A stretch of DNA of 45,917 nt from Candidatus Methanomethylophilaceae archaeon (GTDB lineage Archaea > Thermoplasmatota > Thermoplasmata > Methanomassiliicoccales > Methanomethylophilaceae), in assembly GCA_944321985.1 (NCBI GenBank), contig CALUNK010000004.1:1-45917 (forward strand), in the 5' to 3' direction. A program made the position numbers and the translations under genes. Positions 19,016-28,918 of this stretch are shown here, piece after piece. The notes beneath the pieces were generated by a model. It was given only the letters and a program-made list of their open reading frames with translations. It made no database searches and was not told the origin of the DNA. Position 1 is the stretch's first letter. Each line of letters begins with the position of its first letter.

Positions 19016-20422
19016 TTACCTCTTCAGTTGATTCCTGAAATGCTCACAGTTCTTGATCTTGATTCCAAGAAGATCTTCCATATTCATCTTAGCGGACATA
19101 CCCATCGCAGACCCAGGAAGGCCTGTGATTATTCCTATTCCTAGCTTGTCCCTGATATCCCTAATGTAATTCTCTTCTGTTAACTGGAATGGATCGACTT
19201 CGAGCTTGTCAGCAACATACTTCTTAGCCTCGTCAATCTTCATGTTCTTTGCAAACTGCATCCTTGCAACAAGATCTCCAGCAGTTCTAATTCCACCCAT
19301 TCCATTCGTGAGGCCCTGGGAAATAGCCATTCCCTGCAGGTCCCCACACCCAACCTATATGCCATCCACATTAGCGATTTCAATGAGAATCTTTCCAGAC
19401 CTTCCAACTATGTCAGTAGGTGGTAATTCACACATTGGTATTCCCCCTACACCCATGCCGAGGTTAACATGAACAGGGATGTTGGAAACCTTCTCACATT
19501 CCTTCACAATGACAGCAGAACGTGCAACATTCCATGCAAAACTTCTGGAAGAGTTTGTATTTACGACTGGTCCAAAGATATTAGCACCTGCCTTCTCAAC
19601 CAACTTAACCTGTTCATGAGGGTACATGCCTGCTACAATCTTACCGTCGTACTCCATACTTCCATGAATCCCTAGAACATTCTCAGCAGACATACCACAC
19701 TCGATGTATGCCTCAGGATCTATCTTTCTATAGTTCTCGATACCTCTAAGTGTTGCAACAAACTCAGCATCTCCGGCAGAAGCGGTGGTATCGAAATCAA
19801 ATCCTTCGCATCCAACTTCCCCGATTCTCTCGCAGATGTATCCAATATCGTTCGTTAATTGGTCAGCAGCAGCCTCAGAAGCGGCCATTGATTCCTCAAT
19901 CTTGAATTCTCTCATAAGATCAGTTGGGTTTGCATGAGGTCCATCAGGAGCAAAATATAGTCCCATGTTGGGCATCGCACCCATAACCAGAGGCATAGTG
20001 GTCATTTGACTCATCTGTTCGTAGTTAATAAGCATGAAATCTATGACAGCCTTGGTTGGCTTAATGGAGTAATCCATCCAGGCAAATTCCATTGAGTCAA
20101 AAGCGAAACATCTCTCGTAAATCAGTTGTCCATCAAGAAGTCCAGTGCTAGGAATTCCAACACCGCACCCATTGTTGGCCATATTGAACTTGGTAGTTCC
20201 TGCATCCTTGGAAAGAACAACTTCCTTTCCTGGTTCAACACTTACAATCTTGTTCTTGTCACATACAATCTCACAAATCCTCTCCATTTCTTCCTCAGAG
20301 AGTTCAGGAACCCTAGCTGCATCGGCCCCATCTGCCATTCCAGCATGAATATCATCGATAATCTGTTGCTTGGTCATCCTGACTCTTCTGCCGTCCCCCA
20401 TTCTAGTTACATAATCTTCCAT
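19016..20422 (-). CDS. mtbB: Dimethylamine:corrinoid methyltransferase with pyrrolysine
   Basis: MtbB transfers a methyl group from dimethylamine to the Co(I) corrinoid of MtbC in methanogenesis. The frame is 468 residues once the TAG at 19355-19357 is read as pyrrolysine. The amber is codon 356, the position known for MtbB, in the conserved context VDGI-Pyl-VG. Recognisable stretches are YVTRMGDGRRVRMTK at the N-terminus, GVGIPSTGLLDG, GAMPNMGLYFAPDGPHANP, FDFDTTASAGD, NIFGPVVNTNSSRSFAWN and, after the Pyl, NGMGGIRTAGDLVARMQFAKNM and IITGLPGSAMGMSAKMNMEDLL. Shine-Dalgarno GGTGAT precedes the ATG. Left as two pieces by ordinary gene finders. The pyrrolysine biosynthesis and tRNA genes are not in this window. 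Confidence 0.97.
19355..19357 (-). other. In-frame UAG read as pyrrolysine
   Basis: Codon 356 of mtbB, within ATA TAG GTT on the minus strand. Homology runs unbroken across it, and the position matches the catalytic pyrrolysine of characterised MtbB proteins. Confidence 0.95.
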
Positions 20423-23764: not shown

Positions 23765-24889
23765 TCAGTTCCTCCCATTCCTGATCAGGTCGGCGATATG
23801 CCTTCCAACTTCCGAAGTGGACATCTTCCCGCCCAGGTCGGGCGTGGTCGAACCTGTGTCCAGACATGCCCTGACGGCCTTGTGGATCATCCTACCCTCT
23901 TCGGGGTAGCCCTGCTCCTCCAGGAGCATCTGGGCAGCGAGGACGGCGGCGATGGGGTTGGCGACGCCCCTTCCAGCGATGTCCGGCGCTGACCCGTGTA
24001 TGGGTTCGAACATGCTGACCCCCTCGGGGTTGATGTTCCCGCTGCCCCCCATCCCCAGCCCTCCCTGGAGCTGGGCTCCGAGATCGGTGAGAATGTCCCC
24101 GAACAGGTTGGGGACAGCGACGGTGCCGAAAGTCTCCGGCCTGACGATCATAGCCATGGCCATCGCATCGACGAACATGAACTCCAGGTCGAGGCCGTAC
24201 TCCTCCGTCTTCTCCTGGAAGATCTGCCTCTGCATGCCGTAGTTCTTGGTGATGACGTTCGCCTTGTCGACCAGGGTGACCTTCCCGTCCCCCCTGCTCA
24301 GTGCGTACCTGCACGCATAATCGGCGAACCTGGTGACCGCCGTCCTGGAGAGCAGGCCGATCTCGAACGCGAAGTCATCGTTGTTCGTGGATCTGGCATC
24401 GAGATCTATGTCCAGGCTGTAGAGCTCCCTGTCCACATGGACGTGTGCCCTGGAACCTCCGTTGTTCGGTCCGAAGAACCCGTTTGCCCCCATGTAGAAG
24501 TCCTCGGTGTTCTCCCTCAGGAAGTGGATGTCGAACGGCACCTCCCTCTTCAGAGGGACCAGCGGGAACCAGGATGTGACTGGACGGAGGTTGATGTACT
24601 GGTCGAATACCGCCCTCATCTTCAGCAGGATCCCCTGCTCCAAGATGCCGGGCTTGACCCTGGGATCGCCGATGGCTCCGAAGTAGATGGCGTCCTTCCT
24701 CTTCAGGGCGGAGATGTCGTCGTCAGTGAGAAGCTCGCCGGTTCTCAGATACCTGTCCGAACCGATGTCGAAAAACTCAGGGTCGTACTGGAACGAGGAT
24801 ATCTCGGACACGGCGTCAAGCACATCCATGCCCGCAGCTATCACCTCCTTGCCTATGCCGTCGCCGGGGATGATCGCCAGGTGCTTCAT
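23765..24889 (-). CDS. leuB: 3-isopropylmalate dehydrogenase (beta-decarboxylating family)
   Basis: 374-residue NAD(P)-dependent enzyme that oxidises and decarboxylates 3-isopropylmalate to 2-oxoisocaproate. It opens AIIPGDGIGKEV, has the substrate loop LRENTEDFYMGANG, the catalytic KANVITKNYG segment with its lysine, FVDAMAMAMIVRPETFGTV, the metal-binding Asp in NLFGDILTDLGA, and the C-terminal FEPIHGSAPDIAG nucleotide loop. The ATG at 24889 overlaps the leuD stop by one base. A homologue used in coenzyme B synthesis (AksF) has a similar sequence, but the position in a leuACDB set favours leucine. Confidence 0.9.
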   Translation of the reverse strand: MKHLAIIPGDGIGKEVIAAGMDVLDAVSEISSFQYDPEFFDIGSDRYLRTGELLTDDDISALKRKDAIYFGAIGDPRVKPGILEQGILLKMRAVFDQYINLRPVTSWFPLVPLKREVPFDIHFLRENTEDFYMGANGFFGPNNGGSRAHVHVDRELYSLDIDLDARSTNNDDFAFEIGLLSRTAVTRFADYACRYALSRGDGKVTLVDKANVITKNYGMQRQIFQEKTEEYGLDLEFMFVDAMAMAMIVRPETFGTVAVPNLFGDILTDLGAQLQGGLGMGGSGNINPEGVSMFEPIHGSAPDIAGRGVANPIAAVLAAQMLLEEQGYPEEGRMIHKAVRACLDTGSTTPDLGGKMSTSEVGRHIADLIRNGRN

Positions 24890-25368
24890 CAGAACCTGCC
24901 CTCCCTGATGAGGTTCATCAGACCGCCGGCCTTGACCAGCTCGGTGATGAACGGCGGGTACTCCGGGAAGGCGTACTCCCTCCCCTCCGCGATCACCTTG
25001 CCGCCGTCCGGATCGACCTCCACTGTCTCCCCCTCCTTCACATCCACCTTGCACTCCACCAGGAGAAGCCCGATGTTCATGGAGTTCCTGTAGAAGATGC
25101 GCGCGAACGACTCGGCGATGATGCATGAGAACCCTGCCTCGATGAGGGAGAGAGGCGCATGCTCCCTCGATGATCCGCATCCGAAGTTCCTTCCGGCCAC
25201 CAGTATGTCGCCCTTCTGGACCTGTTGGGCGAACCCGGGTCTGACCTTCTCGAAGATGTAGTCGTTGAGATGGTCGAGATTCGCCGCCACCAGCCTCTCT
25301 GCCGGGATGATCTGGTCGGTGTCGACGTTGTCGCCGAACACCCACACCCTTCCTTTGAACTTGTCCAT
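24889..25368 (-). CDS. leuD: 3-isopropylmalate dehydratase small subunit
   Basis: 159-residue swivelling domain of the isopropylmalate isomerase. It has GDNVDTDQIIPAERL at the N-terminus, FGCGSSREHAP (the substrate-binding loop typical of LeuD/HacB), ARIFYRNSMNIGL and a C-terminal VIAEGREYAFPEYPP. It starts immediately after the stop of leuC (no gap), so the two subunits are made together. In methanogens closely similar HacB pairs with HacA for coenzyme B; the operon context speaks for leucine. Confidence 0.92.
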   Translation of the reverse strand: MDKFKGRVWVFGDNVDTDQIIPAERLVAANLDHLNDYIFEKVRPGFAQQVQKGDILVAGRNFGCGSSREHAPLSLIEAGFSCIIAESFARIFYRNSMNIGLLLVECKVDVKEGETVEVDPDGGKVIAEGREYAFPEYPPFITELVKAGGLMNLIREGRF

Positions 25369-26634
25369 TCAGTTCCCCTCCAGCTGGTCGGGGGTGACGA
25401 TCCTCCCCGCGATGGCCGATGCGGCCACGGTGGCGGGTCCTGCGAGGTAGACCTCGGAGGCCTTGTCGCCCATCCTCCCGATGAAGTTCCTGTTGGTTGA
25501 GGACACGGCCTTCTCGCCGGCGGCGAGAATACCCATGTATCCTCCGAGACAGGCACCGCAGGTAGGCCCGGAAATAAACGCTCCCGCATCGAGGAAGATC
25601 TGCATGAGGCCCTCCTCGACCATCTGCCTGTACACCTTCTGGGATGCAGGCACCACGAGGAACCTGACACCCGGCGCGACCTTCCTTCCCTTGACGATCT
25701 CCGCGCCGATCCTCATGTCCTCTATCCTGCCGTTGGTGCAGCTGCCTAGATACGCCTGGTCGATCCTGACGTCGGCCTCCCTCACGGGACGGCCGTTGCT
25801 GGGCAGGTGCGGGTACGACACCATGGGTTCGATCTGATACAGGTCGTACTCGAGAACCCTGCAGTACTTCGCGTCGGGGTCGGCGTCCACGGGGGTGTAT
25901 TCCCCGCGGACGGTGTCCTCGATGTACTTGCGAGTCAGTTCGTCGCAGGGGAATATGCCTGCCTTGCCACCAGCCTCGATTGCCATGTTGGAGATGGCCA
26001 GCCTGTCCGCCACCGATATGTTGCAGACGTCTCCGTGGAACTCCAGGGCCTTGTAGTTTGCCCCGTCCACGCCTATGTCGGTTATGATCTTGAGGATGAG
26101 GTCCTTGCCGCCGACGTTCCTCCTGAACTTGCCCTTGACGACGACCTTGATGGTCTCCGGAACCTTGAACCACAGCTTGCCGGTGGCGAAAGCCGCCGCG
26201 GCCTCCGTGGATCCGATTCCGGTGGAGAAGGCGTTTATTCCACCGTAGGTGCACGTGTGGGAGTCGGCTCCGACGATGAGTCTGCCCGGAGCGGCGAAGC
26301 CCTCCTCGACCATGAGCTGGTGGCAGACCCCGCTCTTCCCGATCTCGTAGTAGTTTGGGAGCTCGTGCTTATGGGCGAACTCCCTCATCTCCTTCGCCTG
26401 CTCGGCGGAGGCGATGTCCTTGGCGGGGACGTAATGGTCCGGGATGAGGACCATGCGGTCCTTGTACATCTTGTCGGTTCCGAGCTTGGCGTACTCTCTG
26501 AACGCTATGGGTCCGGTGACGTCGTTGACCATGACGTAGTCGATGTTGGCCATGACGATCTGCCCGGCGTAGGCGTCGGTGCCCGATTTCTCCGAGAGGA
26601 TCTTCTCTGCTATCGTTTTGCCCATTTCACTCAC
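25369..26634 (-). CDS. leuC: 3-isopropylmalate dehydratase large subunit
   Basis: 421-residue aconitase-like catalytic subunit of the archaeal LeuC/HacA type. It carries the [4Fe-4S] ligands in GSCTNGR (about residue 290), GPTCGACLGG and the ADSHTCTYGGINAFSTGIGSTE motif. It isomerises 2-isopropylmalate to 3-isopropylmalate with LeuD. The ATG at 26634 overlaps leuA by eight bases; an ATG three codons later (26625) gives MGKTIAEKIL, which is closer to the usual N-terminus, so the precise start is open. Confidence 0.92.
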   Translation of the reverse strand: MSEMGKTIAEKILSEKSGTDAYAGQIVMANIDYVMVNDVTGPIAFREYAKLGTDKMYKDRMVLIPDHYVPAKDIASAEQAKEMREFAHKHELPNYYEIGKSGVCHQLMVEEGFAAPGRLIVGADSHTCTYGGINAFSTGIGSTEAAAAFATGKLWFKVPETIKVVVKGKFRRNVGGKDLILKIITDIGVDGANYKALEFHGDVCNISVADRLAISNMAIEAGGKAGIFPCDELTRKYIEDTVRGEYTPVDADPDAKYCRVLEYDLYQIEPMVSYPHLPSNGRPVREADVRIDQAYLGSCTNGRIEDMRIGAEIVKGRKVAPGVRFLVVPASQKVYRQMVEEGLMQIFLDAGAFISGPTCGACLGGYMGILAAGEKAVSSTNRNFIGRMGDKASEVYLAGPATVAASAIAGRIVTPDQLEGN

Positions 26635-28213
26635 TCTTCTGTCTCGCGAAGTCCCTGTTTATGGCTGCCATCATGGCGTCCACGGACGTCTGGACGACGT
26701 CCAGGCCAACAGCCTTGCCGACGGACAGGTTGCCGTCATTCTGAACGTTCTTGATCATCACGGTGGCCTCGCATATGGAGTCGCTGCCACCGGTCACCGC
26801 CGCCAGCTTGTACTCCTCCAGCGTGATGTTGTCGTTTACTGCCTCGCTGATGGCCTTGAGCGCGGCGTCGACCGGACCGACACCGATCTCGGACTTGACC
26901 CTCTTCTCGCCGTTGATGGCGATGGTCACCGTCGCCGTGGATGTGACGCTCTTTCCTGTTATGACCGCGATGCCTTCGAGGACCGCGGTCTGAATCTTGG
27001 TCTCCTTCTTCCACAGCACGTTCTCGGCTATGGCGACCAACTCGGCGTCATCGATCTCCTTCCCTCCGATGGCGATCTCCTTGATGGCCGTCATCAACTC
27101 CGGCATGTGCTCCTCCGGGAACCTGACGTTGAGCGCGTCGAGCCTCCCTCTTACAGAGTGCTCTCCCGAGTGCTTCCCTATGACGATGTGCCTCTCCACG
27201 CCGACCATCTCGGGCTTGAATGGCTCATAGGTCAGGCTGTTGGCCATCACCCCGTGCACGTGGATTCCTGACTCGTGGGCGAAGGCGTTACTCCCAACGA
27301 TGGCCTTGTTGTAAGCTATCGGGAACCCTGTGATCCTCTCGACCATCTTGGACGTCGGACCCAGTTTGGTGAGGTCGACGGTCTCGACGCCGTAGTTGGC
27401 GAACAGATTGACGGCCACCTCCTCCAACGCCGCGTTACCGGTCCTCTCACCGATTCCGTTGACTGTGACCTGGCAGATCTCCGCGCCTGCCTCCACACCC
27501 GCGAGGGTGTTTGCCACGGCCAGCCCCATGTCGTTGTGACAGTGCATGGAGATCGGGACCCTCAGCACCTTGTGCATCTCCGAGACTATGTGCGCCATCC
27601 CCTGAGGGATGATGACCCCCACGGTGTCGGGAAGGTTGATGGATTCCGCGCCGGCATCCTGGGCGGCGACGCAGATCCTCTTCATGAAATCGAGATCCGT
27701 CCTGGTGGCGTCCTCGCAGGAGAACATCACCCTCAGACCGTGTTCCCTGGCGTACTCGATGGTGGAGACCGCCTTCTCGACCACCTGGTCGGGGGTCATC
27801 TTGAGCTTGTACTTCATATGGAGGTCGCTTGTCGCGATGAACGTGTGTATGTAGTCCACGCCGGTCTGCAGTACGGCGTCTACATCACTCTTCACAGACC
27901 TGGAGAGACTGCACACTGTGCACTTCGTTCCCGCATCCATGATCTTCTTCAGCGTCTCCCTCTCTGTCTCGGAGGACACCGCGAAGCCCGCCTCCATTAT
28001 GTCCACGCCGAGGTCGTCCAACGCCATCGCTATGCGGACCTTGTCGTCCGAGCTGAGTGCGATGCCCGGGGCCTGCTCCCCGTCCCTGAGCGTGGTATCA
28101 AAGATCTGGATCCGGTCCTTGTGGGGTAGGGACTTGAGCGCAAGCTGGTTGTAGGGACTCACTGCCAACATATCTTTCAGCCTAGCGTTCTCACTGGTTT
28201 GGGTAGCTTCCAT
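26627..28213 (-). CDS. leuA: 2-isopropylmalate synthase family enzyme
   Basis: 528 residues, with a DRE-TIM catalytic barrel (IQIFDTTLRDGEQAPGIALS, HCHNDMGLAVAN as metal-binding motif, NGIGERTGNAALEE) and a C-terminal LeuA regulatory dimer domain (about 385-510) of the kind that binds leucine or isoleucine for feedback. Gene order with leuCDB and the leader peptide rich in Leu codons favour 2-isopropylmalate synthase; (R)-citramalate synthase (CimA) and homocitrate synthase (AksA) belong to the same family and cannot be excluded from motifs alone. The ATG at 28213 follows the Shine-Dalgarno GAGGTG by five bases. Confidence 0.9.
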   Translation of the reverse strand: MEATQTSENARLKDMLAVSPYNQLALKSLPHKDRIQIFDTTLRDGEQAPGIALSSDDKVRIAMALDDLGVDIMEAGFAVSSETERETLKKIMDAGTKCTVCSLSRSVKSDVDAVLQTGVDYIHTFIATSDLHMKYKLKMTPDQVVEKAVSTIEYAREHGLRVMFSCEDATRTDLDFMKRICVAAQDAGAESINLPDTVGVIIPQGMAHIVSEMHKVLRVPISMHCHNDMGLAVANTLAGVEAGAEICQVTVNGIGERTGNAALEEVAVNLFANYGVETVDLTKLGPTSKMVERITGFPIAYNKAIVGSNAFAHESGIHVHGVMANSLTYEPFKPEMVGVERHIVIGKHSGEHSVRGRLDALNVRFPEEHMPELMTAIKEIAIGGKEIDDAELVAIAENVLWKKETKIQTAVLEGIAVITGKSVTSTATVTIAINGEKRVKSEIGVGPVDAALKAISEAVNDNITLEEYKLAAVTGGSDSICEATVMIKNVQNDGNLSVGKAVGLDVVQTSVDAMMAAINRDFARQKSE

Positions 28214-28248
28214 ATAAACACCTCAAACCGTCCTAGCTCTCACTGGAT

Positions 28249-28293
28249 TCACTCAAGAAGAAGGAGTAGTCCAATGACAGCGTTACAGATCAT
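28249..28293 (-). CDS. Leader peptide MICNAVIGLLLLLE upstream of leuA
   Basis: A 14-codon ORF from ATG 28293 to TGA at 28249, 35 bases before leuA. Residues 9-13 are five leucines in a row (CTA CTC CTT CTT CTT), and the rest includes Val and two Ile. Shine-Dalgarno GAGGT lies at 28300-28304, six bases before the ATG. In the RNA, CATTGGA (28276-28270) can pair with TCCAGTG (28247-28241), and ACTC with GAGT inside it, leaving a nine-base loop made exactly of the last three Leu codons. This is the architecture of a leucine attenuation leader. Too short for standard gene finding. Confidence 0.7.
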   Translation of the reverse strand: MICNAVIGLLLLLE

Positions 28294-28305
28294 TTTGTGA
28301 CCTCT

Positions 28306-28340
28306 GACGGTGGCACTCCCTATCCACTGATTCTATAAAA
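28306..28340 (-). promoter_or_regulatory. leuA promoter and leader-RNA pairing arm
   Basis: TTTTATAGAA on the minus strand (28331-28340) is a TATA box that would start transcription near 28310, giving a leader of about 100 bases with the small ORF inside. ACCGTC (28311-28306), at the beginning of that leader, is perfectly complementary to GACGGT (28232-28227), which lies just before the leuA Shine-Dalgarno site GAGGTG (28224-28219); this gives an alternative RNA fold. Confidence 0.55.
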
Positions 28341-28418
28341 ACTCTATCAGACGGCTGAACACCGGCGTAAAACATCGCCTTTTGCTAGGGCAGTCGTTAA
28401 TACTATTATCCAGATTAC

Positions 28419-28918
28419 ATGGGCATGGCATGGTTCTTAGGTAAGAAAGAGGAGAAGCCGGTGGAGAACAAGATGCCCGAGCAATCCGAGAGGCAGTACA
28501 ACCTCTACTGGATGATCCGCATGAGCCCTTCGCCGACTACACTGACGAACAGATCCAGGAGGCCATTGAGAAGAAGGTCAAGGAAGTCAACAGGACGCTG
28601 AAGACCCAGCCCGTGGAGATGGTCAGGGTCAAGAGCGAGAAGAAGGTCGCCAAGCTCGAGTCTCTCTCCGGAGACAGGGAAGCCATCGAGGCAGAGAAAG
28701 ACCAGGCCATCCTGCACTTCAACAGGAACATGATAGAGGACAACAACGGCGAGGTCCCCACCGATGCCGCCAAGATCGACGCCACCATCGCCAGGGAGGG
28801 CTGGGCCGACGGGACCGGACTTGTAAAGGTCGATGGCATGCCACACTGCCCCAAGTGCGGGTACATCAACAGAAAGACCAAGCACTGCGTGAACTGCGGC
28901 AACAAGCTCAAGTTCTGA
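28419..28918 (+). pseudogene. Zinc-ribbon protein gene, frameshifted
   Basis: The first 34 codons (MGMAWFLGKKEEKPVENKMP and so on to YNLYW) lie in one frame, whose codons then turn improbable. The coding signal moves to the next frame near 28516-28520, where it reads DDPHEPFADYTDEQIQEAIE and runs to the C-terminal ribbon CPKCGYINRKTKHCVNCGNK. Adding one base after the TGG at about 28516-28518 would join them as LYW-DDPH and give roughly 166 residues. The frame of the second part has no ATG for the missing 30 residues. This may be a mutation, a sequencing error or programmed frameshifting. A TTAATACTATTAT element at 28397-28409 may be the promoter. Function unknown; the ribbon suggests nucleic-acid or protein binding. 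Confidence 0.55.

Follow-up and report, generated by a model that had tools for sequence, protein, structure and literature searches.

A leucine-rich leader peptide and mutually exclusive RNA folds before archaeal leuA: a probable translational attenuator

The leucine operon of a Methanomethylophilaceae archaeon is preceded by a leader that is probably an archaeal leucine attenuator, translational in its output; leader-peptide attenuation itself is known from bacteria. The window is the whole stretch of DNA that was analysed, 45,917 nucleotides of contig CALUNK010000004.1, and leuA and its leader lie on its minus strand, to which the coordinates below refer. It comes from a methanogen of the order Methanomassiliicoccales; among contigs with organism names, its best matches were Candidatus Methanomethylophilaceae and Methanomassiliicoccaceae MAGs. 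We consider it likely that the element acts on the initiation of leuA translation, via the stalling of a ribosome on scarce leucyl-tRNA. Its architecture is well supported by sequence comparison and comprises a putatively translated leader with conserved Leu codons, the helices P1, P2/P3 and P4, and a shared strand. It seems fairly likely that this is an ancient, vertically kept form of archaeal attenuation in which, throughout the class, a ribosome on a Leu-rich peptide controls leuA translation by a switch between P1 and P4.

The leuA gene, coding for 2-isopropylmalate synthase, was located at 26627-28213 (NF002085, 630.9 bits, cut-off 517). On its 3' side follow the leuC, leuD and leuB-like genes (23765-26634) of the same operon, overlapping or tightly spaced, in the order leuA-leuC-leuD-leuB with leuA first. 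The Shine-Dalgarno (SD) sequence of leuA is GAGGTG at 28219-28224, a 6-base match. The TATA-like box TTTTATAGAA of the leuA promoter is at about 28331-28342. In 63 relatives the TATA centre was separated from the start of the leader ORF (uORF) by a median of 44 nt (IQR 43-46), and by this spacing the transcript likely starts at about 28312-28308. In what follows, f1 is the family of the window and f2-f6 are the other five families of the order Methanomassiliicoccales. The leuA promoters of f6 and f3 have a conserved AGCAATG(A/G)TT overlapping or 5' of the TATA box (e.g. L147, L148, L145), which may be an operator or a BRE element. Elsewhere in the window, positions 19258-19357 (-) matched PYLIS_2 of Rfam, the mtbB pyrrolysine insertion element, with 60.5 bits, so that a methylamine methyltransferase gene with a pyrrolysine codon is probably present.

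Between the TATA box and leuA, the original prediction had seen a 14-codon ORF with its own SD, and this ORF is present. It occupies 28249-28293 with the ATG at 28293 and the stop TGA at 28251-28249, encodes MICNAVIGLLLLLE, and is preceded by the SD AGAGG at 28305-28301; its frame and its Leu codons are conserved. The claimed five consecutive Leu codons were confirmed at 28269-28255. They read CTA CTC CTT CTT CTT and are mostly rare, as the Leu codons in the four window genes counted were CTG 70, CTC 60, CTT 12, TTG 6 and CTA 3.

The leuA upstream regions were taken from the searchable genomes of the order, which gave 101 loci with usable upstream sequence in six families. At 90 of these a Leu-rich short ORF was found in the same position; the 90th, L160 (MFVIGNDLASFLREY), was scored by eye. 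Three more families of the class, whose LeuA is about 50% identical, had Leu-rich leaders at all 13 leuA loci (13/13), e.g. MAHGSTGLLFLLPLGLILLA and MDAKRSSASILPLQLLLLLC. These counts agree with the claim that a chance origin is unlikely, and in the comparison of related Methanomassiliicoccales that had been suggested as a check, the short ORF and its Leu codons were retained and the stems had compensatory changes. The peptides of f1 mostly follow MI(C/F)...(G/E)L(I/L)LL and those of the other five families mostly ...(L/I)(L/I)LR..., with different codons (e.g. TTG ATT TTG CGC). The leader was absent or degenerate at L126-L129, L141, L144, L151, L183 and L185. At L113 and L114 (G036, G035), P1 and CAACAAACCAGT are kept and the Leu run is lost from the uORF (GTG start, MRTASRPPAGSAKLSRRR). 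The genome G062 has two leuA copies (L102, L123) with one leader each (MIFKLKTELILIK, MICTLISELRLLI). At L202-L214, from other orders of the class, the leader peptides before leuA are differently designed (...LPLGLLILA and stop; the same 13/13 loci), and in some of them CATYGCTG follows the uORF stop.

The substitution pattern was analysed in 65 non-redundant leaders. In the final four codons of the Leu run, synonymous changes made up 39% of the codon differences in the true frame versus 2-12% in the shifted frames, and 69% of the differences stayed within Leu/Ile/Val versus 1-2%. At L101 the run is recoded as CTA TTA TTG TTG and Leu is retained. In 56/65 of these leaders the Leu run opens at codon 9-11 and closes at codon 12-13; all three stop codons are represented. 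Rare Leu codons (CTT, CTA, TTG, TTA) account for 56 of the 69 Leu codons in the f1 leaders, against 12.4 expected from the leuA codon usage of the same genomes. An attenuator is expected to have a leader ORF with codons for the end product of its operon, and here conservation extends to the frame, the start and stop, and the Leu codons. The uORF therefore appears to encode a translated peptide with conserved Leu codons, and its codon choice appears tuned to stalling.

The RNA of the f1 leader is typically predicted to fold into a three-way junction, in which P1 encloses the whole ORF, P2 and P3. P1 pairs ACCGTC at 28306-28311, 18-13 nt before the uORF ATG and within the footprint of a ribosome initiating there, with GACGGT at 28227-28232, which overlaps the 5' strand of P4. 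The P2 hairpin (28287-28305) contains the uORF SD and start and pairs AGGTCA at 28303-28298 with TGATCT at 28292-28287, the uORF codons 1-3; this pairing would explain the near-constant MI(C/F) of the f1 peptides. In the P3 hairpin (28240-28277), the 5' half of the uORF is paired with a segment 3' of the stop, TCATTGGA at 28277-28270 with TCCAGTGA at 28247-28240, followed by an inner helix of TACTC (28268-28264) with GAGTG (28254-28250). P2 and P3 belong to the predicted minimum free energy (MFE) fold. The stem whose loop had been proposed to comprise exactly the last three Leu codons is identical with this fold, the loop being CUUCUUCUU. The ACCGTC/GACGGT pairing had been proposed to compete with this Leu hairpin, but the two co-exist in the junction. 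A Leu leader peptide and alternative folds do precede the archaeal leuA; the mutually exclusive pair, however, is P1 and P4.

In a structure-aware alignment of 41 distinct sequences, 84% of the cells of the junction were paired. Double-sided changes occurred in 9/18 pairs versus 4.6 in shuffles, with 0/500 shuffles as high, and the covariation score was 0.257 compared to 0.04-0.12 when slid. For P1, 99% of the cells were paired with double-sided changes in 3/6 pairs; P2 had 80% of cells paired and 2 double-sided pairs, and P3 had double-sided changes in 4/6 pairs. An alignment-free swap test was also applied, comparing the pairing energy of each species' own segments with that of segments exchanged between species. 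P1 gave z -10.3 over the order and P2/P3 (the 5' part of the uORF with the post-Leu segment) z -12.3, and control segments with no expected pairing gave z -0.3 to 0.7 on the full set. Because related species are not independent, the values within families matter: P1 and P2/P3 were significant in f1 and f6, and P2/P3 in f5. Pairing between the uORF and leuA was not detected in the swap tests of the order's leaders. The f1 leader was more structured than dinucleotide shuffles (z -1.98); the promoter and the downstream part of leuA in f1 were not.

The element after the Leu codons is conserved as CAGYGNNAGC in f1 and as CATYGCT elsewhere. CATYGCT is kept as sequence in f2-f6 (e.g. L145, L146, L164) and f11, and in f3 it is inside the ORF. 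Pairing accounts for no more than part of its conservation, and it may be a recognition site. Near copies are found in the post-stop sequence TCCAGTGAGAGCTAGG at 28247-28232 and the leuA-coding sequence CCAGTGAGAACGCTAGG at 28197-28181, a likeness that recurs in relatives (CAGTGNNAGC).

The leuA start itself is covered by the predicted hairpin P4 (28196-28229), a part of the MFE fold. Its strands are GGTTTGAGGT at 28229-28220, with most of the leuA SD, and ACCCAAACC at 28204-28196 in leuA codons 4-6; as RNA, GGUUUG-A-GGU pairs with ACC-CAAACC and spans the SD and the AUG. A small hairpin P5 (AGTG/CGCT, 28184-28195, leuA codons 7-10) adjoins it in the fold, with 91% of cells paired. The outer helix of P4 was 100% paired in the 26/26 sequences of f1, and two pairs were changed on both sides. 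In other groups P4 is formed with altered sequence, GGUUCG/CGAACC in L104, GGCUUG/CAAGUC in L131, AUUGGU/ACCAAU in L146, GGCUUGAUCGAGG/CUUCGCAUCAAGCU in L171 and GAAUUU/AAAUUC in L140; this covariation outside f1 comes from few species per family. The swap test for P4 gave z -4.8 (p<=0.0001) overall, -2.7 within f1 and -2.6 outside f1, and was not significant within f5 alone or f6 alone.

The codons of the P4 3' strand, CAA-ACC-AGT, are biased. Ser is encoded by AGT in 30/30 of the f1 leaders with the T/A-S motif, versus 29/553 Ser codons elsewhere in leuA, and Gln by CAA in nearly all of them, with a CAG:CAA ratio of 163:14 elsewhere in leuA. The leuA start region of f1 was also more structured than shuffles (mean z -1.92). 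P1 and P4 are mutually exclusive, since the 3' strand of P1 is common to both; this is the pair of exclusive folds expected of an attenuator, and both have support from covariation and from swap tests. Lying over the SD and AUG, P4 would block the translation of leuA. The extra N-terminal stretch (QTSENA...) of leuA in this family might then consist of codons kept for the RNA.

In our model, the transcript would start just 5' of P1 and a ribosome would translate the 14-codon leader. Strand d, which comprises the P1 3' strand and the leuA SD, would have two possible partners, the leader's 5' end (P1) and the first leuA codons (P4); in the second pairing the leuA SD and AUG would be hidden. With plentiful leucine, repeated initiation at the uORF would keep a footprint over the P1 5' strand, P4 would form and leuA would be shut. 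When charged tRNA-Leu is scarce, the ribosome would stall where the rare Leu codons lie, at positions 9-13, too near to the start for the next one to load. Both strands of P1 would stay free, P1 would form first and prevent P4, and leuA and the leuCDB operon would be translated. We infer that the ribosome stalls, how its footprint acts, the sense of the switch, in which starvation favours P1 and opens leuA, and the translational level of control.

The geometry of the leaders is consistent with this. Across the leaders the P1 5' strand occupies roughly positions -24 to -13 relative to the uORF start (-18 to -13 in the window), so that a ribosome initiating on the uORF would cover it. Measured from the first base of the final Leu codon, the median distance to the P1 3' strand is 22 nt in f1 (20.5 elsewhere), at which a ribosome stalled on Leu would leave this strand free. 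For transcripts that stop at the leuA SD, folding predicts P1 in 97-100% of the leaders (species). When leuA codons are added P4 gains; in the window P1 falls from 7.0 to 0.7 pairs and P4 has 12.4. Equilibrium folding with ribosome masks gave no clear difference in mean SD accessibility from state to state (0.25-0.28). The switch must therefore be kinetic or its sign is wrong, and the sign assigned here rests on strand order and geometry. Since ribosome-free RNA would form P1 co-transcriptionally, the OFF state must come from initiation at the uORF, which is unusual. P1 reaches into the leuA SD in some species and a minority of genomes have no leader, which both count against the attenuator model.

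The switch could also be wired in the opposite direction. In this erm-like arrangement the P1/P2/P3 junction would be the closed state, and a ribosome stalled in the Leu hairpin would open the leuA site. P1 is indeed flush with the leuA SD and extends into it in several species (L145, L087, L088), and stalling would weaken P1 because P3 is inside it. However, in L146 of f2, L171 of f3 and L140 of f6 the SD is largely free of P1 but paired by P4, and the cost of opening the ribosome-binding site in the window rises from 6.0 to 11-12 kcal/mol once P1 is blocked (model ending at leuA +18). We regard the opposite wiring as unlikely. Control might instead be exerted on transcription, if the choice of fold or the loss of uORF translation led to premature termination by the archaeal polymerase. 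A T5 run is found just 5' of the leuA ATG in many f1 relatives, and an untranslated leader could expose the RNA to termination factors. Against this, 0 terminator-like sites were found in the window leader in a search for an intrinsic terminator between the leader ORF and leuA (28100-28420), the window (TTTAT) and most other families lack the T run, and the P4 hairpin includes the leuA SD and start, which makes transcription attenuation quite improbable. Of the original prediction of a classic bacterial leu/ilv design, the leader and the folds hold, but the output to be expected is an effect on translation initiation rather than on the termination of transcription.

Direct binding of a ligand (leucine, tRNA-Leu or a protein) by a structured RNA, with the uORF as a passenger or minor part, would agree with the compact three-way junction and with a post-Leu element that is kept even inside the ORF (f3), and the actinobacterial LEU elements have been argued to bind a protein (PMC1262725). 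But the reading frame with its start, stop and Leu codons is maintained through synonymous changes, rare codons are selected and the stem sequence varies freely, and we find direct ligand binding very improbable. Finally, the leader could be a chance ORF without regulatory function, as short ORFs are common and ilvB, ilvC, ilvD, trpE and hisG of the same genome have no similar one. The conservation in about 100 genomes, the frame test, the codon bias and the swap tests stand against it; the cross-species comparison contradicts this reading, to which we give almost no weight.

The absence of a similar leader at these five genes suggests that, within the genes checked, the element is specific for leuA. 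The ribosome site CCACCGTCAGAGGT upstream of ilvB in the same genome (L196, ~1440-1490) has the same sequence as the P1 5' strand and SD together in the leuA leader, but no uORF. A covariance model searched against 390 genomes of the phylum matched only before leuA, plus one weak extra. The latter, in G214 (E 0.005), was rejected as it looks like chance in a genome without leuA. Rfam 15, including leu leaders, T-box and riboswitches, gave no hit on the leader at gathering thresholds, and none at E<=10 when both strands of 28150-28400 were scanned. Among 8 readable leuA loci of other archaeal phyla, a Leu-rich ORF, MKLPKSMTHSSFLLLLFWKGIPNV, precedes leuA in the Asgard Jordarchaeum (L022, ~577-655), and the Leu run is not kept in its relative L023; these sequences are too few to support a claim.

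In archaea, transcription attenuation and antitermination are not known (PMC8448881). Archaea are named in general terms among the organisms with regulatory uORFs, with no example of the amino-acid attenuator kind given alongside (PMC10219788). A described archaeal amino-acid leader peptide was not found in a literature search confined to papers outside subscription, in line with the claim that no such case had been described. If the proposal is true, it would extend demonstrated trp/leu-type attenuation beyond bacteria for the first time, and the class-wide element would mean that ribosome position senses the amino-acid supply in archaea too. It would also bear on transcription-translation coupling in archaea, and the leuA leader is a ready candidate for a leucine-responsive element in archaeal genetics.

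Like the leader described here, the enterobacterial leuL attenuators open the leu operon with a short ORF in which rare Leu codons follow one another, and have mutually exclusive alternative folds. Their output is a Rho-independent terminator, whereas here no terminator was found, the exclusive fold covers the leuA ribosome site and the machinery is archaeal. The leuA-Halobacteria RNA motif is likewise a candidate structured RNA 5' of leuA in archaea; our leader differs in having no Rfam family match even at E 10. In the actinobacterial LEU element, the Leu codons and the leuA SD together form the basal pairing of a pseudoknot, and the authors of that work doubted that translation of the leader is important (PMC1262725). 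A Leu-codon uORF before leuA, a compact RNA, the lack of a terminator and an involvement of the leuA SD are common to both. Here, in contrast, the Leu codons are in the P3 loop, the SD pairs with leuA codons 4-5 and selection at the codon level is clear; a base stem of the Leu run with the leuA SD and a pseudoknot did not appear in the folds. In the erm-type systems (ermCL), as described in PMC10219788, an antibiotic induces the stalling of a ribosome on the leader, which refolds the RNA and exposes the SD of the main gene. The leuA leader would likewise expose an SD by refolding around a stalled ribosome, with scarce charged tRNA-Leu as the proposed signal and not an antibiotic.
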